The notes beneath the pieces are model-generated. The model worked only from the letters and a program-made list of their open reading frames with translations. It did no database searches and was not told the origin of the DNA. A stretch of DNA of 29,597 nt. It comes from a virus. Shown here piece by piece: positions 2,989 through 29,557 of the stretch (position 1 is its first letter; each line of letters begins with the position of its first letter). Made by a program: the position numbers and the translations under genes. The stretch spans positions 1 through 29,597 of IMG/VR virus record IMGVR_UViG_3300027600_000006; one strand, given 5' to 3'.

Positions 2989-4242
2989 CTATTCGTTATA
3001 ACTTGTGTCTTCGGCCTCAAACCCGCCTGTATCAAATCTATTTTCATTTGGGGGGGTTTCATATGGGTTGTAACCAGTGCTTGGATCGTAGAGAGGCGAT
3101 TCAGTTGAGCCTGTTGGGATGAGCTCCCCATTAGCTCCCGGTGTATATCTTCCGCCTTGTGAATCAGTTATGTAAGTGCCATCTGGGGATAGCGTGTATC
3201 CAAATGGAACTTGATCTGGGCTAATTGAATTTCTATTTAGCAAAGTACTTGGGTTAATACCAGCAGCTTTCAGTACGTTGGTAATGGTGTCACCAGTCAT
3301 ACCAGAAGCTTTGAGGTTCTTAATAAGCTCCGCAGTGCCAGCAGCAGTACCAACAGCAGTTTGCAAGAAGCTTGGTTTAGCCATGTATTCGCTTGAAGTA
3401 GCCCCGCCAATACCTTTGATGAGGTTGGCTTGATTGGCCAATAAAGTGCCGGGATAGTTTCTTTGCTCAAGGTACTGGTTGTACAGAGCATTGAGGCCAG
3501 CTTGATTTTGAGCTTGCTGAGTATTTCCAGCAGCACCCAAAGCTGTAAGATTTTGCAATCCATACTGAGCCTGTTGGGCTCCTACGTTTCCTGCGGCTTG
3601 ATTTGCCGTCGCTGCTTGAGATAGGCCTTTGAGTCCTACATCTGTACCGTACTGAGCTTCTTGAATCCTGCGAGCTTGATCAGCATTAAATTGAGCTGCC
3701 GCCTTATCGTAGGCAGTGTTGTAGCCCTGACCGGTAATAGCAGCTAAGTTAGTTCCTAAATTGCGTTGAGTCTCAGTGTCCATCAAAGCCTGACGAGATC
3801 CGCCATATGCACCGGCTTGTGTAGCTTTAGCGTTATTTGCTAGCTGAGTGATCTGCGCTTGGCGACGGGCTTCTTCTAATTGTGGATTGAGCGCGTTCTG
3901 CAGATACGGGTTCATGTACTGCTGGGCGGCATTTGCATCAAATGCACTACCAACAGGGTTGTAACTTGTTCCAGCTGATTTGTTGCCAATATCTAAAAGA
4001 TTGGTACCGGCCGTAGTCATGGTGGACGGCAAAGTCAGGTTTGACAATCCTTGAAATGCTTTGTTTTGAAGCTCAGAGGTGCCAGCGGTTAACTGACCCG
4101 TGTACTGAGGAGCCGGGTTGTTAAGAAGCGCTTGACCCTTGTTCAGTACATCAGAGACGTAAGGTTGCGTAAAAGCGCTTGGCCCCGTTACCGTTGCTTT
4201 GGATGGGGTGTCTGTAAGCCCTGAAGATGATAGTAGTGCCAT
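2989..4242 (-). CDS. Probable internal virion protein, Ala/Gln-rich (417 aa)
   Basis: The start at 4242 is preceded by AAGGAAA. The N-terminus (about 20-55) has a QPYVSDVLNKGQALL motif and a YTGQLTAGTSELQNKAF motif. The middle (about 110-275) is a long helical region rich in Ala, Gln and Asn, with NPQLEEARRQAQI and GAYGGSRQALMD. This combination recurs, from memory, in virion-associated proteins of uncultured aquatic phages. The C-terminal 120 residues are Pro/Gly/Ser/Tyr-rich and probably unstructured. It lies between two other large low-complexity virion proteins, with 8-9 base spacers on each side. The biochemical role is unknown; an ejection or inner-core protein is the best guess. Confidence 0.8.
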   Translation of the reverse strand: MALLSSSGLTDTPSKATVTGPSAFTQPYVSDVLNKGQALLNNPAPQYTGQLTAGTSELQNKAFQGLSNLTLPSTMTTAGTNLLDIGNKSAGTSYNPVGSAFDANAAQQYMNPYLQNALNPQLEEARRQAQITQLANNAKATQAGAYGGSRQALMDTETQRNLGTNLAAITGQGYNTAYDKAAAQFNADQARRIQEAQYGTDVGLKGLSQAATANQAAGNVGAQQAQYGLQNLTALGAAGNTQQAQNQAGLNALYNQYLEQRNYPGTLLANQANLIKGIGGATSSEYMAKPSFLQTAVGTAAGTAELIKNLKASGMTGDTITNVLKAAGINPSTLLNRNSISPDQVPFGYTLSPDGTYITDSQGGRYTPGANGELIPTGSTESPLYDPSTGYNPYETPPNENRFDTGGFEAEDTSYNE

Positions 4243-4251
4243 GGTATTTCC

Positions 4252-6300
4252 TTACTTAGGAATAAATTTTTGGGGTTTAATTTGTTTGCCTTGCTTGGGA
4301 TTTCCCGTGCGGGCTCTGCGAACTTGGTCCATCATCTTGTATAAAACCTTAGCTCCAGCATCTGTCGAGCCGTTTCCAAGATGAGAGACTACATCAGCGG
4401 GAATTACAAACTCGCCATCAGCTAATCTGGCTGGTTGTTTGTTGCTGATTGAAGCTGGGATATGGTCTGACATTCCATCTCCGGGGCCTTTGAGTAACCG
4501 GCCTCCATCGGAGTAGCCACCTAAAGAAGATAGGCCTCCACCAGCCAAAGACATTAGACCGCCTTGTGCTGCAAACCGAGGGTCAAGCATTGCTTGTCCT
4601 TGGGCCGCACCATCAATAGGAGCCTCTACTGGGCGAGCATTCCAGTTAAGAACTTGTTGCCTGTAAGCGGCCGCTTGTGCAGCTGGGCTTGAACTGTCAC
4701 TAGCCAATGCACCCAAGCCTAAAGCTGCCCCGCCAACTAAAGCCGCATTTCCAAAGTTAAACCCACCACTTGTAGATGTTGGAACTTTTACGGATGCCAC
4801 AGGAGTTGAGGTTGGTGTGCTTGTCAATGATTTTGAAAGCTCTGCCAATGTAGGTTGTTGGGTCACAGGAATGATGTCAGCCAATGGATCTGTCTCCATA
4901 GCGGGCATAGACGATACTGAGTTTGGATCAATACCTATTGCATCCCAATAAGCTTTATCGCTAGCTGTAGTTTGAACGGGCGGAGTAGTAGGTGCTTCTG
5001 CAATTCCAGCAAGCGGATCAGTCTGTTGAGCGGGCATTCCAGACACGGAGTCTGGGTTAATGCCAATAGACGCTAAGAAGTCTTCTTGGCTTGTCTTGAG
5101 ATCAGGCGTAAATTCTGTATCAACTACAGGAACTTGATTGGGCTTTTCAGGAATTATGTTTGTTTGCTCAGGCGGTTCTTCTGGTTTAGTCTCCGGCCCC
5201 TTCATTAGCTCTTGCTGAAGCCCGGCTACGGCTTCATTGTCAGGAGCTAACCAAGCATTAGTCGTGGGATCGTAGAAAGCACCAGCTGGCTTGTTATCAA
5301 CCTCGGCTGAAGACATTAAACGATAGCCAAATGGGGGTCTGTAAGTTTTGGCTGCAGAACTCTCGGCATAGATTGGTGCGCCAGATACATCTACTCTATT
5401 GAGGGACGCAGCATCTATTGGGCCGGCAACTTGTACTCCCTGTGGAATAACTTGTTCGGCAAGCTCATTTGTTGAGCTTATGGATCCAGCAGCAGGATTA
5501 AATCCGCCGCCTACATCAATATTGTCAGGGCCTCTTGTGCCGCCAACTTCCGACATCTGTGCGGCTTTGTATTGGGATTTTGCTTCGTTAATACCCGCAT
5601 TAATTGCGGCGTTTACAAGAGCTTGAGTGGGATCTCCGCCCATCAGAGTGGCCGCAACAGTAGCGTTTACCGCCCTTTGAGCAGTTGGAGAGAGTTGGTC
5701 AAAGCCGGGGATTTGACTTGTTACAGCAGATGTTCCAGCTGAAATACCTGAGTTTGTAAGTGCTGTTAATGGGTCTTGGCCCATTACTACGCCTGCAGCT
5801 GTGCCACCAGCAATCTTGCCTGCTACGTTTCCAGCCACATCACCAGCCGTCCCCATGCCAGCGTCTTGAGCGGCCAGCATATTACTTTGCTGGGAGCCTA
5901 CGTCTGTTCCATATGTACTTGCGGCGCCGGCGCTATCTACACCAGCATTAACTTCTTCACCAACCGCCTGCCCTATTTTCTGTGCAACATAAGTTTTAGC
6001 AGCGGCTGTTGCGCCTTTCTCAAGAGCTTCATCAAGTTCAGCCCCATTTGCCACCTCAACCGCAGTATTGGCCGCCAAAACATAATAAGGATTACCAGAC
6101 GCAGCTGCAGCTATCTTTAACGATGTGCCTACTGGGTCTTCTTCAAAAGCATCATAGGTCTTCTGAACAGACTCAACTACAGGCGTAACAACTTCGTCAA
6201 TAACAGCTTGACCTGTATCTTCAACAAAATCGCCAACGTCAGAAACGGTATCGCTTACGCTACTACCTAAGTCACTGACTGCATCTGCTACTGCACCCAT
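4252..6300 (-). CDS. Large Gly/Ala-rich virion protein with conserved C-terminal region (682 aa)
   Basis: The start at 6300 has AGGACA just upstream and lies one base after the previous stop. Residues 1-110 are Val/Asp/Ala-rich and helical. Residues 110-260 are Gly/Ala-rich and could associate with membranes. An internal duplication lies at about 405-475, with copies around IGINPDSVSGMP and IGIDPNSVSSMP. The C-terminal third holds GGLMSLAGGGL, then a conserved-looking block (ARLADGEFVIPADVVSHLGN, then VRRARTGNPKQGKQI) close to the end. I recognise that C-terminal block as common in phage virion-cluster proteins of unknown role. No tape-measure-like hydrophobic repeat pattern is evident. Inferred internal virion protein; other roles are not excluded. 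Confidence 0.8.
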   Translation of the reverse strand: MGAVADAVSDLGSSVSDTVSDVGDFVEDTGQAVIDEVVTPVVESVQKTYDAFEEDPVGTSLKIAAAASGNPYYVLAANTAVEVANGAELDEALEKGATAAAKTYVAQKIGQAVGEEVNAGVDSAGAASTYGTDVGSQQSNMLAAQDAGMGTAGDVAGNVAGKIAGGTAAGVVMGQDPLTALTNSGISAGTSAVTSQIPGFDQLSPTAQRAVNATVAATLMGGDPTQALVNAAINAGINEAKSQYKAAQMSEVGGTRGPDNIDVGGGFNPAAGSISSTNELAEQVIPQGVQVAGPIDAASLNRVDVSGAPIYAESSAAKTYRPPFGYRLMSSAEVDNKPAGAFYDPTTNAWLAPDNEAVAGLQQELMKGPETKPEEPPEQTNIIPEKPNQVPVVDTEFTPDLKTSQEDFLASIGINPDSVSGMPAQQTDPLAGIAEAPTTPPVQTTASDKAYWDAIGIDPNSVSSMPAMETDPLADIIPVTQQPTLAELSKSLTSTPTSTPVASVKVPTSTSGGFNFGNAALVGGAALGLGALASDSSSPAAQAAAYRQQVLNWNARPVEAPIDGAAQGQAMLDPRFAAQGGLMSLAGGGLSSLGGYSDGGRLLKGPGDGMSDHIPASISNKQPARLADGEFVIPADVVSHLGNGSTDAGAKVLYKMMDQVRRARTGNPKQGKQIKPQKFIPK
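4880..5080 (-). repeat. Internal protein-level duplication (two copies of about 30 residues)
   Basis: Two segments of the 682-residue protein share the pattern IGI(N/D)P(D/N)SVS(G/S)MPA...TDPLA. They are separated by a Pro/Thr linker. The DNA copies (near 4880-4950 and 5010-5080) are diverged, so the duplication is not recent. Confidence 0.75.
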
Positions 6301-6301
6301 A

Positions 6302-6733
6302 TCATTGTCCTAAATTCAAAACAATCCGCCTGCCGCCGGATTTGAGCTTGTACTCTTTGAACCCCATGCCGGGCATTGGAGGCTTCTTAGAGATGGCGTG
6401 GAATAAAGTACTTATTGCCGGATCATCAAACTCTGTGACCAGCATGTTCATGCCAATCTTCTTGGCATAGACCACATACTGTTTACTGTTCTCTACAAAG
6501 TTACGGGCTTTGTCAGCGTTCAGAGCTTTAAAAAATGCTTGTCCGTTTTTCCCTTTGTGCAGGATAAACACGGTGTTACCAATTTGTTTTACGTCTGTAT
6601 TTGGCTGAGTTACTTCAGTAAGGATTGCGGGCATAGCCATTCTGTCTGGAACGGAGGAATGCGTGTTCTTAATTGCGATGGCAGCAATTTGTGCAAAATC
6701 TAATTTTTTCTCCTTGCTGTCCACCATTGCCAT
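6302..6733 (-). CDS. Conserved phage protein of possible GNAT-like fold (143 aa)
   Basis: I start at the ATG at 6733, the MAMVDSKEKK start, because GGAG lies seven bases upstream, inside the end of the ketosynthase gene. A longer frame upstream lacks a site. The protein has an N-terminal helix (DFAQIAAIAIKN), a beta hairpin (GNTVFILHKG then GQAFFKALNAD), a helix (FVENSKQYVVYAKKIG) and a strand-helix-strand end (MLVTEFDDPAIS, then a KKPPMPGMGFKEY loop). That order is reminiscent of an acetyltransferase (GNAT) fold, but the canonical Q/RxxGxG/A acetyl-CoA loop is not obvious. Proteins of this look are common in phage virion clusters. Placement directly behind ACP and ketosynthase genes makes an acyl-transfer role worth testing. 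Function unknown. Confidence 0.85.
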   Translation of the reverse strand: MAMVDSKEKKLDFAQIAAIAIKNTHSSVPDRMAMPAILTEVTQPNTDVKQIGNTVFILHKGKNGQAFFKALNADKARNFVENSKQYVVYAKKIGMNMLVTEFDDPAISTLFHAISKKPPMPGMGFKEYKLKSGGRRIVLNLGQ

Positions 6734-6734
6734 A

Positions 6735-7823
6735 CTAGATCTCCAGAATTGCTGCCGAATACACATTACCCATGCCAGCGGCCAAGCTGAGAATCAACCC
6801 GCCGGGGTTAGACTCATCATAGGAAAGAAACTGGTTGTCATGTGTTGTGCGGTTTTCTATCTTTGGCACAACGCCACGTTTTAAATCGTCAATTAGCAAA
6901 CATGTCTCGAGCAAGCCACTGGCGCCCATAGTGTGGCCGATTTTAGCCTTGTATGACGTTGCAATGTAATCCCCTAAACAGTAATTTAAAGCGGCCTTCT
7001 CAGCTGCATTATTGGAACTTGTTCCAGTGCCATGGGTTTTGACTACTTTGATCTGCTCGGCGGTAGCGCCAGAAACATGCAAAGCACCCTCAATAGAGCG
7101 CACAAACCCCTGCCCATCCTCTCGCTGGCCGATAGCATTTGAGTGATCCTCGCTAGCTGTGTATGCGCCTTTGAGGGTGGCCAGTGGGTTGTCCGAGTCA
7201 GCCTCAAACACCGCTAGTACAGCGCCTTGGCCAACTCTAAAGCCGTAGTTAGTGTCATCAAAAGCTGATGGCAATACGCCGCGTTCCTCATCTTTTTGAG
7301 ACAAGGACGCTCTGGCCTCGCCAAAGAACTCAAGCACCGCGTTTGATACAGCGTCTTCTACCGATAGGACAATGACCCGAGCAAACCCATAATGGTTGAT
7401 CAGGGTCTGTACATCCATCAGTGCTTTAAGACTGGAGGCGCAGGCCGTGGCATCGGTAACAACATGATCCGTAGCACCCAGAGCTTGGGCTGTTCTTCCA
7501 GCGTAGACCTGAGTAAGGGAAAAGGGGAGGAACTTGTATTCATAGGACAACCTCGTAGGCTTCTTAGAGCGTGGGTTAATTCCGGCAAAGTGGGCGTTAC
7601 CTGAAGCAAGAATAAATGCAGTCTTGCCAACGCGGTTCTCTCGTAGGGATTTGACCAGATTAGGGTCTAGAACCTTCTCGGCCAAGCGGTGAGGAGGGTA
7701 GAACATCCCAGTACTCACGCGGGCGTATGTCTCTGGAAACCAGTGAACGCTCTGAGGAAACGGCCCTTCCATCAGCTCAACCGTAGTTGAGTAGGCCGTC
7801 CGGTAGTGGGTCAGATGGATCAT
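6735..7823 (-). CDS. Beta-ketoacyl-ACP synthase (FabF/FabB-like, divergent)
   Basis: This is a thiolase-fold condensing enzyme that would elongate an acyl chain with malonyl-ACP. The ATG at 7823 overlaps the ACP stop (ATGA); an ORF start seven codons earlier lacks this coupling. Residues seen in the 362-residue product: nucleophile Cys128 in DATACASSLKAL, His264 in KTHGTGTSSNNAAEKAAL, and Lys292 with His297 in KAKIGHTMGASGLLE. The condensing Cys-His-His triad and the structural Lys are therefore intact. It is shorter than bacterial FabF (about 410). The N-terminal VVVTGxG signature is absent, and the C-terminal GFGGxN loop reads AAGMGNV, so the substrate pocket or gating may differ. It sits immediately after the cognate-looking ACP and before a possible acyltransferase. 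The substrate (fatty acid, polyketide-like or host lipid) cannot be told from sequence. Confidence 0.93.
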   Translation of the reverse strand: MIHLTHYRTAYSTTVELMEGPFPQSVHWFPETYARVSTGMFYPPHRLAEKVLDPNLVKSLRENRVGKTAFILASGNAHFAGINPRSKKPTRLSYEYKFLPFSLTQVYAGRTAQALGATDHVVTDATACASSLKALMDVQTLINHYGFARVIVLSVEDAVSNAVLEFFGEARASLSQKDEERGVLPSAFDDTNYGFRVGQGAVLAVFEADSDNPLATLKGAYTASEDHSNAIGQREDGQGFVRSIEGALHVSGATAEQIKVVKTHGTGTSSNNAAEKAALNYCLGDYIATSYKAKIGHTMGASGLLETCLLIDDLKRGVVPKIENRTTHDNQFLSYDESNPGGLILSLAAGMGNVYSAAILEI

Positions 7824-8101
7824 TTGATCTGCTCCAAAGCCCATTCCATAGACTCAGGATCGCGCGTCTTATGCAGCTGGATAAAGTCATACAGCTCATC
7901 TACAGTCTCAGGCTGGAACTCTTTAGATATCTCGTCGTCTATGTCATAGATCATGCCCATGAACATACCGATCATCAGCATGTCTAGGGAGTCAAAGCAA
8001 GTTTCCTCAAACCTTTCGTCCATCCGCTCAATAGGGACGAACTCATGGTGAGCTGGGCGAGCAACTCGGGCAACTTTGTTTAATAGCTCTATGAAATTCA
8101 T
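7820..8101 (-). CDS. Acyl carrier protein
   Basis: This 93-residue acidic helical protein has the phosphopantetheine attachment motif at residues 36-40 (FDSLD, Ser38). It is followed by the helix II/III pattern MLMIGMFMGMIYDIDDEIS and the family's TV-x-x-L segment (TVDELYDFIQ, 66-75). Size and Ser position match bacterial ACPs (Ser36 in E. coli AcpP). Activity would need a host phosphopantetheinyl transferase, since none is seen here. The ATG overlaps the stop of the preceding small fibre gene by ATGA, with GGAAGG upstream. Its stop overlaps the ketosynthase start in the same way. This ties expression to the virion operon and strongly suggests it carries the chain for the adjacent ketosynthase. 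Confidence 0.92.
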   Translation of the reverse strand: MNFIELLNKVARVARPAHHEFVPIERMDERFEETCFDSLDMLMIGMFMGMIYDIDDEISKEFQPETVDELYDFIQLHKTRDPESMEWALEQIK

Positions 8102-8448
8102 CCGACCTTCCAGTTTGTTCCGTCTGAATATACAGGCGTTTTAACTGCCCCACCCGCAGCCACAGTTGAACCAAACGTAGGCGACAAAGCATCCGATACA
8201 AACGCCCTAGCCCCAATCCCAGATGTGGCTGCACTTGGTAGGGTTGCTACTGTATAAACGGTAAGGGCGGGAAGTATCCCGCTATCTGTATTTAGTTGAT
8301 CTAATATTCCTTGTATACGATTAAAGTACAAGCGCAAAACATTACCAAGCTGACCTTGATATATGGCCGAGTATTGCTCCGGTGCTGTTGGTAGTGCAGG
8401 TGCCGCAATCCTATTAAGATCAGACTCAGAGGTAACAATGAATGTCAT
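8098..8448 (-). CDS. Small tail/fibre-associated protein (116 aa)
   Basis: The ATG overlaps the stop of the 711-residue protein (ATGA). An N-terminal helical part (about 20-55, with AIYQGQLGNVLRLYFNRI) could trimerise. It is followed by a short beta segment ending in YSDGTNWKVG, a terminus often seen in fibre or collar proteins in which a strand displays Gly-Thr-x-Trp. I infer a small fibre or nozzle-associated virion protein. No specific family is recognised. The next gene downstream is the ACP. Confidence 0.8.
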   Translation of the reverse strand: MTFIVTSESDLNRIAAPALPTAPEQYSAIYQGQLGNVLRLYFNRIQGILDQLNTDSGILPALTVYTVATLPSAATSGIGARAFVSDALSPTFGSTVAAGGAVKTPVYSDGTNWKVG

Positions 8449-10580
8449 CGTCTTCCATCCTGTCTAATGTCTAGACGGGGTGAGCCTAGTTGCCAAGTAA
8501 CTCCAGTGGCTGTAGATCTAACTTCCATAGATATTTGACGGCCTCTTACCCTTGTATAGATCTGCCCCGTAAACTCTTCAATAGGAAGAGTTGCCGTGCG
8601 AGTGATCGTGGCAGAAGCATTACCACCTACAGACTGAGGGTTGTTGTATCCAGAGCCTGAGTTTTGCATAGGTTTTAGATACATCGTAACTTGCGGGCTT
8701 GCCGCCGTAGATCCACGGAATGTAATGTCTGGCACTACGCGCCATATAAATCCAAACCTATCTCCATCCTCAAGGTCAAATTCTGCGGATGTAATGTAAG
8801 CCTCAATAGGAAGAGTAGTTCCAGTAGCGTTGTCATCAACCCCAAATTCATGGTCAACTATGTTGTAGTCGTAAGTAGCCGCAATTGGATAATCTCTTAA
8901 ACCAGAGTCAAACCATGCTGTTCTTGCCATAAACCCGTAATACCAAACACCCATACCGCCTTTGCCGTCTGGCTCAAGGTAGTTATAGACAACATAACGA
9001 TCCACAGTAGTAGAGCCTTCAGAACAGTAGAACCACCAGATCTCGTTGAAACCTTCGTTTGTTCCCGCTACTACTTGCTCAAATTGCTGTCTGTCAATGT
9101 CTTCAAATATGTATTGACGCAGATCGCATGAAAGAGTTTGTGTGCGTCCATCATATTTATAAAACTTATCTACGCCCATCCAATACGCTACACCGTTGGC
9201 ATAAGCAACAGCATTTGGCCCCGCTATAGACAGGTTATCTCCTACTAGTTGAGAACCCCAAACTACAGGCGCTCCTACATACTGAAGAGAATACAAAGAT
9301 GAGTCAGTCCATACCAAGATCTCTTGACGGGCTTGAGCCGCAGTTATGATTTCAGAACCGTGCGATAAGCGGAGATCGCCTGCCGTATTAGTTGCAGATG
9401 GAGTCCATTCCACTACGGATTCTTGGCTAGACCAACGAATCTGCATAGGATCTTGAGTAGTAGATCCAAGCGCATTACATCCAAAAGCAAACACATATCT
9501 ACTTGTATCAGAGACAAGGATAACGTTCTGTACTGTTGGACAGTTAGATGCGCTGGCTAGACTGGCAATATTGATACCTCGCGGGGATACAGAATGAACA
9601 CCAGACTGGGTGCCTGTTGTAATTATGTTTGCCCCACCAAAAGTGGCGGTCAAATTACAAGTAGCTCCAGAAACATTGGCTACATAGTAGACAGTACCTA
9701 CAGATAATCCCGTGGGCAAAGCTCCCGTAGTAGTCAATTGAATAGCTGTTCCGTTAGGCAGATTAGTCAAACTAGAAAAAGTAACCACAGCTGGAGAAGC
9801 AATCGTCACCGTAAAAGTGGAACTTGTTACACCTAGATTAGCATTCCATAGATAGATAGCACCGCCCCGTGCGCCAAAGATTAAGTCTTGCCCAAAGTTA
9901 TTTTGGCTCCAAAGACGCATGGCATCTGTAATAGTCGCACCAAATCCCCATGTTCCATATCCCCAAAGACCAGTCCCCCAGCCTGTTAATGGAACAGCAT
10001 AAGCGGGGCCAGTATTAATCTGATATTGAGTAACCACAGAACCACCGCCGGGCGATCCTGATGCATCTGTCGCATTTGCTGTGGCTGAGACTGTGATCCT
10101 ATATGTGTTTACATCAACAACCGTGACTTGAAACTCACCAGTCAAAACAGCGGCGGTAATGTTTCCACCTAACCCCACAATTCCAGCGCCGCTAAAAGTT
10201 ACATAGTCGTTTGTTATACATCCATGAGCCGTATCCGTTACAGAGATCACGCTTGAACTGGCTGTAGCCGTGAAAGGATTTGACAGGGTAACGGTGTCCC
10301 TAATAGGGGTTATGTCGTTATATATGCCGCCGCGCTCAATATAGAACTTGAGGTTAGTTCCTACGCCAAGTAAATTTAGAGCAGATAAAGTTACCCAGCA
10401 CCACAAAGAACGGCATACGCCTAAAAACGTACTGGCGGAGATGCGTTGCCACCCGCCTATTTTTTCAGGTGTGCCTTGGCGGAAGCGGATTTTGTCGCAG
10501 TCATACCAACCGCCTTCGGTTGTATAGCGAGTGTTCTCCTTATTGACCCCCGGCCTTAGTAGTATTTTTTTAAGTGGCAT
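8445..10580 (-). CDS. Tail nozzle-like structural protein (711 aa)
   Basis: The start at 10580 has AGGA upstream and lies eight bases after the endolysin stop. The N-terminus contains the conserved-looking GGWYDCDKIRFRQGTPEKIGGW (about 23-44, with IRFRQG and GGW central). Residues 108-168 form a beta module with the AHG...TGEF...VNTYRITV pattern. A similar module occurs in the protein at 25007. The remainder is beta-rich, with many aromatic Trp/Tyr blades (for example WSSQESVVEW near 390). The C-terminus ends IYTRVRGRQISMEV...WQLGSPRLDIRQDGRR. Size, beta-propeller-like pattern and ending resemble P22 gp10 or T7 gp12-type tail hub and nozzle proteins. Family assignment is from pattern memory only. 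Confidence 0.85.
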   Translation of the reverse strand: MPLKKILLRPGVNKENTRYTTEGGWYDCDKIRFRQGTPEKIGGWQRISASTFLGVCRSLWCWVTLSALNLLGVGTNLKFYIERGGIYNDITPIRDTVTLSNPFTATASSSVISVTDTAHGCITNDYVTFSGAGIVGLGGNITAAVLTGEFQVTVVDVNTYRITVSATANATDASGSPGGGSVVTQYQINTGPAYAVPLTGWGTGLWGYGTWGFGATITDAMRLWSQNNFGQDLIFGARGGAIYLWNANLGVTSSTFTVTIASPAVVTFSSLTNLPNGTAIQLTTTGALPTGLSVGTVYYVANVSGATCNLTATFGGANIITTGTQSGVHSVSPRGINIASLASASNCPTVQNVILVSDTSRYVFAFGCNALGSTTQDPMQIRWSSQESVVEWTPSATNTAGDLRLSHGSEIITAAQARQEILVWTDSSLYSLQYVGAPVVWGSQLVGDNLSIAGPNAVAYANGVAYWMGVDKFYKYDGRTQTLSCDLRQYIFEDIDRQQFEQVVAGTNEGFNEIWWFYCSEGSTTVDRYVVYNYLEPDGKGGMGVWYYGFMARTAWFDSGLRDYPIAATYDYNIVDHEFGVDDNATGTTLPIEAYITSAEFDLEDGDRFGFIWRVVPDITFRGSTAASPQVTMYLKPMQNSGSGYNNPQSVGGNASATITRTATLPIEEFTGQIYTRVRGRQISMEVRSTATGVTWQLGSPRLDIRQDGRR

Positions 10581-15287: not shown

Positions 15288-15905
15288 TTATCCTTTCAGA
15301 GCCGCAAGTGGTTGCATGGCTTTTTCCATAGTCCAACCAGCCTTTAATCTGGAGCGCAAAGTTGTTGGTTGCATACCTAATTCCTTTTCCCATTGTGAAC
15401 GAGTTTGGCGTTTACCATCCCATTCAATAAAAATATTAGCCCGTGTATTGTTTGCTTGCTGTTCACGAGTAGCCCAACGGCAATTAGCCTTATGGTAATT
15501 ACCATTGAAGTCTATGCGGTCAAGGCTAAGTCCTTCTGGTGCTTCACCCATGTCTTGTAGGAAGTTTTCAAAAGCATCCCAACGTTCATCATAAGTAATT
15601 CCACGGCAAGAATAGTCTTGATTGATGCGATTACAGCGATTACGCATTGCTTCCCACAATTTATATGTGCGGGTTTTGCTCATGCCATGCGTGATGTTTG
15701 ACTTGGCTATACGCTTTGTATGCTCACATCCACACGAACTAATCTTGCCTTGCACCATGTCAGTAGCAGGAATGTTCTTTTGAGTACCGCAATCACATAG
15801 GCACAGCCACCAAGCACCATTGTGCTGGCGTTGCTTCTCACCTAACTGCAAAACAGTCAGGCTACCAAAGCGAAAGCCTTGTAGGTTATTAAGAGGTTTG
15901 CCCAT
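15288..15905 (-). CDS. HNH homing endonuclease-like protein
   Basis: I choose the ATG at 15905 (MGKPLNN), preceded by GAGGAAG; it overlaps the previous small gene by 17 bases. The 205-residue product has an N-terminal zinc-binding cluster (Cys35, Cys37 and Cys39 in CLCDCG; Cys58 and Cys60 in SCGCEH). It also has an HNH-type nuclease core (LDRIDFNGNYHKANCRWATREQQANNTR region, with Asp129, His138, Asn141 and Asn152-153 candidates). The C-terminal DNA-binding repeat (WDGKRQTRSQWEKELGM then TLRSRLKAGWTMEKAM) is typical of phage HNH specificity modules. It is free-standing between fibre genes, transcribed with them, and probably a mobile selfish insertion that spreads by cutting related phages. 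No intron or intein boundary is visible. Confidence 0.9.
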   Translation of the reverse strand: MGKPLNNLQGFRFGSLTVLQLGEKQRQHNGAWWLCLCDCGTQKNIPATDMVQGKISSCGCEHTKRIAKSNITHGMSKTRTYKLWEAMRNRCNRINQDYSCRGITYDERWDAFENFLQDMGEAPEGLSLDRIDFNGNYHKANCRWATREQQANNTRANIFIEWDGKRQTRSQWEKELGMQPTTLRSRLKAGWTMEKAMQPLAALKG

Positions 15906-16074
15906 TGGGTACTTCCTCGTCTGCGCCATAGACCTTGCCACCTTCGGCTTGGTACTTCAAAAAGGCTTGGTAATCGGTGTTGTCTGGGTCAAATGGGATG
16001 CTGTCTTTTCCATCACGCAAAACAGAAAACACTTGATTTTCAATACCACTTTTAAGAAGTTTGTATGTTGTCAT
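15889..16074 (-). CDS. Small fibre-associated protein (61 aa)
   Basis: The start at 16074 directly abuts the stop of the preceding fibre gene, with a CGGAG site. The sequence reads MTTYKLLKSG, then SIPFDPDNTDYQAFLKYQAEGG and a short acidic tail. The motif IPFDP-N-DY-FL-W/Y-AEG is, to my knowledge, common in tiny proteins placed after phage tail-fibre genes. Possible roles include fibre assembly chaperone; this is unproven. Its 3' end overlaps the HNH gene. Confidence 0.82.
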   Translation of the reverse strand: MTTYKLLKSGIENQVFSVLRDGKDSIPFDPDNTDYQAFLKYQAEGGKVYGADEEVPNGQTS

Positions 16075-24027: not shown

Positions 24028-24272
24028 TAGCATTTCCAAGCCCGCAGGCTTTTGTTAATCCTAGAGTTCGGGTCTTTCGCTGTTTTTGCGGATGTCAACT
24101 TCTTTTTCATCCCCTCCATGCGAGCGCAGAAAGAGTCTTTCCTTGATCCGCCTTCTGGTTGCGGCGGTTTCAAGTTCATCCCTTGCTTTTTCGCGGAGGC
24201 TCGGCCCTTGGCATTCAAGCCACCGCTGGGGTTCTTGCCTTCTTTGCGTTGCCATGCTGGTGACTTAGCCAT
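24027..24272 (-). CDS. Small basic conserved phage protein (DUF6321-like; 81 aa)
   Basis: The ATG lies within the last codons of the glycosyltransferase gene (8-base overlap). The product begins MAKSPAWQRKEGKNPSGGLN, then AKGRASAKKQG and SFCARMEGMKKKLTSAKTAK, ending RINKSLRAWKC. I recognise the PAWQRKEGKNP.GGLN pattern and the FCARM.GM segment as a conserved phage family of unknown function, probably the one called DUF6321. It is very basic, with Cys at the end. Possibly packaged with DNA; unproven. Confidence 0.87.
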   Translation of the reverse strand: MAKSPAWQRKEGKNPSGGLNAKGRASAKKQGMNLKPPQPEGGSRKDSFCARMEGMKKKLTSAKTAKDPNSRINKSLRAWKC

Positions 24273-25014
24273 TTACAACTTTCAATACCGGTGTGCAGTG
24301 CTCTTTTAGTAGCGGCTGCAGCACATCTTCCTCAAAGTTTCGTGTGAACTTTTCTTGTCCAACGTGAGGAAGACTGATTGATGGGTCAAGGAAAACCGTA
24401 AAACCATCTTCGGTTGCACGATCACAAAAAAGGTAATCTTCGCCGTAGTACTCACCGTTCACAATCTTTAGATCAAAGATGGCGTGATCTGTTCGGTTGT
24501 CTACATTATTGTCGTATGCCCACTCTGGGTGGTTTGCAATCATTGTCTCGATAACATGGCGTTGGATCATCATGAATCCTGTGCCAATACGCTTCACGCG
24601 AAGCAAGCCGTTCTTATCAAACTCAAGAGCGCCATTTTCATCAAGGTGATAGTCAAGGAAGAACTTGCGATCCATGCCACGGCGAGGATAGATACCAGCC
24701 GTAATGTCTTTGTCAAGACTCAGCGCAAATAACCGGAGTATTGCATCAGCTGTAACAACAACATCTGCATCAACAAACAGAAGTGTGTCTGCGTCAGATT
24801 TTAAAAAGTCAGCAACCAAGCAGTTGCGGGCTTTTGTAATAAGGGAGCACCCCGAGAGGTGCGTAAGATAAAGCTTAATCCCCAACGGCTGAACCTTAAC
24901 GGCCAGATTGGACAACGCAAAAGCCGAATCAATGTTCAGCTTCCCGTCGTAAGCTGGGATCGCAACCATAAGTTTGCGCCCAACTAGATTAATGCTTTTC
25001 TCGGTATCAGCCAT
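24265..25014 (-). CDS. GT-A family glycosyltransferase
   Basis: This enzyme would transfer a sugar from a nucleotide donor. Visible features are the first strand and loop (RKLMVAIPAYDGKLN, 13-27), the helix ITKARNCLVADFLKS, and the metal/nucleotide DxD motif at Asp82-Ala-Asp84 in LLFVDADVVV. Also present are GTGFMMIQRHVIETM and the acidic GEDYLFCDRATEDGF with a candidate catalytic acid. It is about 249 residues with no TM, which fits a soluble GT2-like domain. It overlaps the preceding virion gene by eight bases and the next by eight, so it is made with head and neck proteins. Likely targets are a virion protein or a host surface glycan, by inference. Confidence 0.88.
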   Translation of the reverse strand: MADTEKSINLVGRKLMVAIPAYDGKLNIDSAFALSNLAVKVQPLGIKLYLTHLSGCSLITKARNCLVADFLKSDADTLLFVDADVVVTADAILRLFALSLDKDITAGIYPRRGMDRKFFLDYHLDENGALEFDKNGLLRVKRIGTGFMMIQRHVIETMIANHPEWAYDNNVDNRTDHAIFDLKIVNGEYYGEDYLFCDRATEDGFTVFLDPSISLPHVGQEKFTRNFEEDVLQPLLKEHCTPVLKVVNG

Positions 25015-29143: not shown

Positions 29144-29557
29144 TTATTTGCGCCGAATTCCGCGTGGATCGTCAACGGTACCTTCAACCGAATCATCATT
29201 GATCATTCGGAATTCTTTACCATGGATAACCAATCGGGTTCCAGCATTGGGTCTAATCAAAACAAAGTCACCAACTTTGCAATAAGCGCCAGTCGGGAAA
29301 CGACTTGGATCTTTGTAGCAATCTGGCCCCATAGCAACCACGAATAACACGGTTGTTAGAGTTTCTTCAATCATGATAGTTTCGTCAGCTTTGATGATGC
29401 CGCCGTCAAACTCTTTTTCCTGTTCTGGGATAGCGCACAGAATGCGGTATCCAGATGGGGTAGGGAGTTGTTTGGCTTTCTCGTCTGCTGTCTTGTGCAA
29501 TAGTCCTGTTAGGTCAATTGCTTTCAGTAAATCTACTGATTCACTCGTCGTCGTCAT
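29144..29557 (-). CDS. GroES-like co-chaperonin (phage-encoded Cpn10 fold)
   Basis: The product has 137 residues. It has a leader (1-32), then PSGYRILCAIPEQEKEFDGGIIKAD, where GGII matches the hydrophobic mobile-loop tip (GGIVL) of GroES. The core VLFVVAMGPDCYKDPSRFPT is followed by AYCKVGDFVLIRPNAGTRL, with the GD(F/I)V signature, and HGKEFRMINDDSVEGTVD. The order matches GroES over about 95 residues, with an extra N-terminal extension and a short basic tail. It may replace host GroES on GroEL to fold the capsid protein, as T4 gp31 does. It precedes the scaffold and capsid genes. The start overlaps the end of the upstream gene by 17 bases. Confidence 0.9.
   Translation of the reverse strand: MTTTSESVDLLKAIDLTGLLHKTADEKAKQLPTPSGYRILCAIPEQEKEFDGGIIKADETIMIEETLTTVLFVVAMGPDCYKDPSRFPTGAYCKVGDFVLIRPNAGTRLVIHGKEFRMINDDSVEGTVDDPRGIRRK

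Follow-up and report, generated by a model that had tools for sequence, protein, structure and literature searches.

A putative accessory cassette of acyl carrier protein and ketosynthase genes in uncultured phages

Adjacent genes for an acyl carrier protein (ACP) and a beta-ketoacyl synthase (KS) in a phage genome piece are best read, with roughly even confidence on our part, as an accessory, mobile metabolic cassette whose layout resembles that of NodF/NodE: a dedicated ACP and an elongating KS of the FabF/KAS I-II type, with host enzymes assisting. The genes lie on the minus strand of a 29,597-base IMG/VR virus record (IMGVR_UViG_3300027600_000006; the whole of it is called the window here), which is probably a fragment. 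Viruses that carry lipid genes mostly have single, host-derived copies. Here a deep and virus-only KS lineage comes with its own ACP, and the pair appears to have stayed active across hundreds of phages, being gained and lost together. The product of such a pair would be a new phage route to bending host acyl metabolism.

Residues, conservation and joining of the two genes

The KS gene (6735..7823, minus strand) encodes 362 amino acids that match Pfam PF02801 (8.5e-18) and PF00109 (3.5e-10), both beyond the curated cut-offs; NCBIfam and PDB matches also recognise the protein as a condensing enzyme. In the PDB, its AlphaFold model (pLDDT 91.5) has the actinorhodin KS 1tqy_A as its top structural match, and FabF is matched as well. 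The catalytic residues named in the original prediction were all located on the minus strand: Cys128 (codon 7442-7440), His264 (7034-7032), Lys292 (6950-6948) and His297 (6935-6933). Domain scores, KS fold and the Cys-His-His plus Lys set agree in placing the protein among thiolase-fold condensing enzymes of the KAS I/II type, with predicted activity, and not outside the condensing enzymes, a placement that would have told against the original prediction. As a FabF equivalog it fails, with 103.4 bits against the TIGR03150 cut-off of 493.75 (NCBIfam).

The gene before it (7820..8101, minus strand) encodes a protein of 93 amino acids, which we file as ACP-like from its motif and profile comparisons: a Pfam search, curated PP-binding family included, gave no match to this divergent sequence. 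The predicted phosphopantetheine serine was confirmed as Ser38 in FDSLD (codon 7990-7988, minus strand). The ACP-family profile matched 89 PDB sequences (best 1.4e-4), those among the matches listed (60) being all ACPs; in the alignments inspected, its serine aligns with the phosphopantetheine serine of the PDB ACPs; and hhalign gave an E value of 1.7e-6 when the family was compared with a profile built from AcpP, NodF and two further ACPs. The DS motif is present in 154/154 members of the aligned family.

Beyond this motif the viral ACPs are specialised. They share 12-29% identity with AcpP, carry a hydrophobic residue at the position of AcpP Glu41 in every one of 154 sequences, and have lost most of the acidic residues of helix II (net acidity 2.2, versus 6 in AcpP). 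Changes are also found on the KS side: FabF contacts ACP through Lys65, Arg68 and Lys69, and almost every viral KS has Gln, His/Asn and Trp at these positions. These changes in the ACP face and in the KS contact sites suggest that the two proteins are a co-adapted and partly insulated pair.

Conservation was examined in 154 distinct full-length viral KS sequences from all loci, the window KS included, with identities of 48-100% to the window KS and 42-100% between pairs. Cys128, His264, Lys292 and His297 are invariant in all 154, and the median dN/dS of the KS is 0.067 (215 pairs). Because the catalytic residues are unchanged at such pairwise identities and dN/dS is so low, chance is excluded, and the residues are kept by strong purifying selection; the same two observations rule out a pseudogene.

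The two genes overlap by an ATGA (7823-7820, minus strand), and a second ATGA (8101-8098, minus strand) joins the ACP gene to the gene for a 116-aa protein before it, so that both predicted overlaps exist. The 4-base ACP/KS overlap is retained in 120/153 relatives. A survey for conserved linkage, which had been proposed as a check, found an ACP immediately upstream of the KS in 153/154 cases, the sole exception beginning at a contig end. Moreover, the ACP was absent from 25/25 records that lack the KS and present in 4/4 that bear it. ACP and KS are thus inherited as a unit, on an all-or-none basis.

Viral relatives and known systems

The family is widespread in viruses. A single-protein query recovered 128 viral relatives, querying with an alignment yielded relatives on at least 567 IMG/VR contigs, and a single close prokaryotic relative was found among ~85,000 genomes, in a contig binned as Balneolaceae. 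This contig itself looks viral from its neighbouring genes, which include the same GNAT-like gene as in the window and other phage-like genes. Among deposited phage genomes, MW202545.1 (Manatee Spring; circular, 57,457 bases) has both genes, with identities of 67% and 53%; its proteins UOF78413.1 and UOF78446.1 belong to the same families, and the record names the KS alone, the ACP being hypothetical. In this record (L002 20001-20157) the KS start is apparently annotated ~150 bases late, and the full frame overlaps the ACP gene through ATGA. The families also correspond to phrog_35856 and phrog_28189, both of which have the PHROGs function entry unknown. FabF matches were also returned by unannotated 'phage' records of Listeria, Enterococcus and Staphylococcus; these appear to be bacterial contaminants, and we left them out.

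A tree of 22 viral KS rows with FabF, FabB, NodE, KS-alpha, chain-length factor (CLF) and one type I polyketide KS, a small cellular sample, united the viral sequences in one clade (support 100/100) whose branch measures 5.45 changes per column. Relative to the FabF, FabB, NodE, KS-alpha and CLF sampled, the viral KS therefore form a long-branched, virus-only clade of their own. A captured host FabF is ruled out by this single long-branched clade together with the lone close relative in 85k genomes.

The closest parallel in layout is NodF/NodE, an ACP homologue and a KS required for special unsaturated acyl chains (PMC9048898). Shared features are an ACP (93 aa) adjacent to and followed by a KS, as a dedicated pair that relies on other fatty acid synthase genes; residence on accessory mobile DNA (symbiosis plasmids in rhizobia); the full Cys-His-Lys-His set; and a Met at the Phe400 gate position of FabF, found in NodE and in all 154 phage KS (Met351 in the window, codon 6773-6771, minus strand). 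The phage pair is likewise a two-gene unit, ACP then KS, with no phosphopantetheinyl transferase (PPTase), malonyltransferase or reductase on the genome piece. The differences are that the phage KS is in a separate clade and is shorter (362 vs 402 aa), that the phage ACP is 12-26% identical to NodF, and that the nodulation acceptor genes are absent from the phage cassette. NodE grouped among the bacterial KS in the tree and not with the viral KS, and the likeness is therefore one of layout and function only; by this placement the phage pair is not a member of the NodF/NodE family.

Type II polyketide systems of the actinorhodin type (KS-alpha plus ACP) share the best structural match (1tqy_A) and a dedicated ACP, but the phage KS lacks an adjacent chain-length factor, cyclase or reductase and does not join them in the tree. 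FabF/FabB (KAS II/KAS I) with AcpP share the fold, the catalytic residues and the ACP partner, and differ in that the phage KS lies in a separate clade, far under the fabF equivalog cut-off, while the phage ACP has mostly lost its helix II acidity. These comparisons bear on a reading that we consider unlikely, in which the KS would be an extra FabF acting on host acyl-ACPs to alter the length or unsaturation of bulk membrane lipids, the ACP merely raising flux. The FabF-like fold and complete catalytic set of the KS are consistent with it, and phage ACPs have been proposed as lipid auxiliary metabolic genes (PMC8224337, PMC11705849); but a generic FabF needs no divergent ACP of its own, the pair is all-or-none, and the KS is neither a captured host FabF in the tree nor like FabF at its ACP-binding positions.

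Viral ACP and/or KS genes have been reported before (PMC8224337, PMC7029224, PMC5463345, PMC11705849), namely fabG-acpP-fabF in Rhodobacteraceae prophages, fabF in a Fonsibacter pelagimyophage, and lone phage ACPs. Those are host-like sets or single genes, whereas the present family is a virus-only two-gene unit on >500 contigs. We found no paper on this viral ACP-KS family in the literature searched, though one may exist.

Genomic slot, mobility and loss

In the window, the pair occupies a slot among virion genes, all on the minus strand. Upstream are the 116-aa protein (8098..8448), for which there was no family match, and a gp10/stabilisation-like virion structural protein (8445..10580; phrog_3287, 2.1e-57); the downstream flank is a probable internal/ejection protein (4252..6300), followed by a DNA ejection protein-like gene (2989..4242; phrog_4287, 8.3e-11). 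A slot between tail/stabilisation-type and ejection-type genes holds 137/152 pairs. The remaining 15 (L061, L068, L072, L081 and 11 further loci) are found in a replication module, with a helicase-like gene before and a small sigma-like gene after (gene names assigned by eye). In the window, the late position is more readily squared with a virion role than with early metabolism, although it is not shared by these 15 pairs.

The slot is often empty. Of the gp10-anchored relatives whose records run on for at least 2 kb downstream, 49/55 lack the pair there, and mapping its presence or absence on a tree of 75 gp10 proteins requires at least 9-11 changes. One relative (L231) has a gp10-like protein 80% identical to that of the window, yet its slot is without ACP, KS and GNAT genes. 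A deletion is preserved in two records from different metagenomes, L158 and L157, which are 99.98% identical over 5,646 bases: in the scar (L158 3880-4040, also in L157) the ACP gene is reduced to its first few bases and the KS gene to a 72-base remnant in which the catalytic His297 codon has become Phe, and an intact GNAT gene (78%) comes next. The 116-aa gene is intact too, as are the ejection proteins (72% and 88%), and the 23-kb L158 record has no ACP or full KS elsewhere. Since the pair was deleted while the virion genes remained intact, it is dispensable for virion production, at least in that lineage. Nor is its location in the virion operon essential.

The cassette is thus accessory, changes its genome site and is open to loss. 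The tie to the virion that had been predicted found no support in the form stated: 15/152 pairs are in the replication module, 49/55 slots are empty, and one lineage has deleted the pair with its virion genes intact. The original prediction had also named relatives lacking the pair, or carrying inactivated copies, as evidence against it. Such relatives and one inactivated copy were indeed found, and they point to an accessory character without implying that the proteins are not enzymes. A virion-bound pair is weakened by the replication-module copies and the L157/L158 scar. A purely structural use in the virion, with no catalysis, is highly improbable: 137/152 loci do lie among virion genes, but the catalytic residues are invariant in 154 sequences, copies occur in the replication module, and the natural deletion leaves the virion genes intact.

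Several other minus-strand genes of the window were noted in passing. A GroES/Cpn10-like protein near the capsid genes (29144-29557) scores 19.1 bits with PF00166, just below the cut-off, and a chaperonin 10 kd subunit is annotated at the corresponding place in MW202545.1. A glycosyltransferase-like protein among the head genes (24265-25014) matches phrog_12406, with Anp1 and GT8 under the cut-off; an HNH endonuclease, possibly a homing endonuclease, lies amid the tail fibre genes (15288-15941); and the start of a long protein truncated by the record end (2-1282) is phrog_30335-like and, more weakly, resembles the virion RNA polymerase and DarB-like families.

Host enzymes, possible products and the GNAT-fold neighbour

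The original prediction saw no malonyltransferase, reductase or PPTase in the window, and this extends to its relatives: HMMs of ACPS (PF01648), malonyl/acyl transferase (PF00698) and short-chain reductase (PF13561), with bacterial controls positive, detected no PPTase, malonyltransferase or ketoreductase in any of 33 virus records, of which several are fragments and MW202545.1 is circular and complete. The remaining fatty acid synthase partners were thus not found elsewhere in these phage records, and host enzymes would therefore be needed by the pair.

We infer the mechanism and the product of the cassette as follows. A host phosphopantetheinyl transferase would arm the phage ACP, and host FabD would load malonate on it; the phage KS would take up a host acyl chain on Cys128, and His264, His297 and Lys292 would decarboxylate the malonyl-ACP, leaving the phage ACP with a beta-ketoacyl chain that host reductases and a dehydratase may complete. 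The acceptor of the chain may be a lipid, a small molecule or a protein. Having its own ACP would separate the phage chain from bulk fatty acid synthesis, as with NodF/NodE in rhizobia. The probable outcome, with host enzymes assisting the KS, is a special acyl chain made in the course of infection. The weaker acidity of ACP helix II and the loss of the Lys65, Arg68 and Lys69 equivalents in the KS may or may not allow acceptance of the ACP by host AcpS and FabD.

The absence of downstream biosynthetic enzymes in the 33 virus records also agrees with a decoy or control function, in which host fatty acid synthesis or the stringent response would be lowered by an ACP that sequesters phosphopantetheine, malonate or regulators that bind ACP, and by a KS that decarboxylates malonyl-ACP. 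A divergent ACP could compete for host partners. We think this reading quite unlikely, as a decoy has no use for a fully conserved elongation set and an ACP stripped of much of its acidic face would bind many host partners more weakly.

Directly after the KS in the window is a 143-aa protein (6302..6733, minus strand), a possible acyltransferase or a gp13/internal-virion-protein-A-like protein. It has a GNAT fold (AlphaFold pLDDT 93.7; Foldseek matches to PDB GNATs with E ~1e-4 and TM ~0.55), and it also resembles a viral 'internal virion protein A' (3.3e-5). By eye, the Q/RxxGxG/A CoA-binding loop was not seen, LNADTA being aligned there. Acyltransferases of the HlyC/RtxC type have a GNAT fold and an acyl-ACP donor, and in one of them, ApxIC, the CoA-binding elements are absent (PMC8339906). 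Because HlyC-type enzymes combine a GNAT fold with acyl-ACP use and no CoA elements, and the neighbour shares the fold without a canonical CoA loop, a role as an acyl-ACP transferase is conceivable.

On this basis a three-gene module may be proposed, a suggestion that we regard as doubtful: ACP and virus-only KS would form a minimal phage type II synthase in a large group of uncultured phages, producing acyl-ACP, and the GNAT-fold protein would transfer the acyl group, HlyC/RtxC-like, either onto a virion or host protein, at a lysine or amine, or onto a small signal molecule. Co-occurrence argues for it. A GNAT-like gene comes after the KS in 131/145 loci; its subfamily is present in 38/38 KS-bearing records tested and in G034, with two records (G021 and G034) having it unlinked, elsewhere and on the opposite strand, while the pair is in the replication module; and 0/24 KS-lacking gp10 relatives give a strong match. 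Against it, ACP-KS accompanies the GNAT gene in 66/69 loci, and the three exceptions, L157 and L158 (the same virus, ACP-KS deleted) and L203 (no ACP-KS), rule out an obligate trio; in a difference from HlyC/RtxC, the GNAT gene is retained where ACP-KS is lost. In L236, L248 and L279, other divergent GNAT-like proteins occupy the slot without ACP-KS. The likeness to internal virion protein A also weighs against the module, and the co-occurrence may be explained by linkage and descent (hitch-hiking).

The predicted making or modification of an acyl product by the phage is therefore upheld in part, as to a condensing enzyme with a conserved active site and a dedicated ACP, and not as to the virion. 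Under the preferred reading of an accessory, host-assisted cassette, acylation of a virion component is possible as one option only; a GNAT-fold protein usually follows the pair but outlasts it. At one locus (L078 9100-9753) a 218-aa gene, 2OG-Fe(II) oxygenase-like by eye, lies between the KS and GNAT genes.
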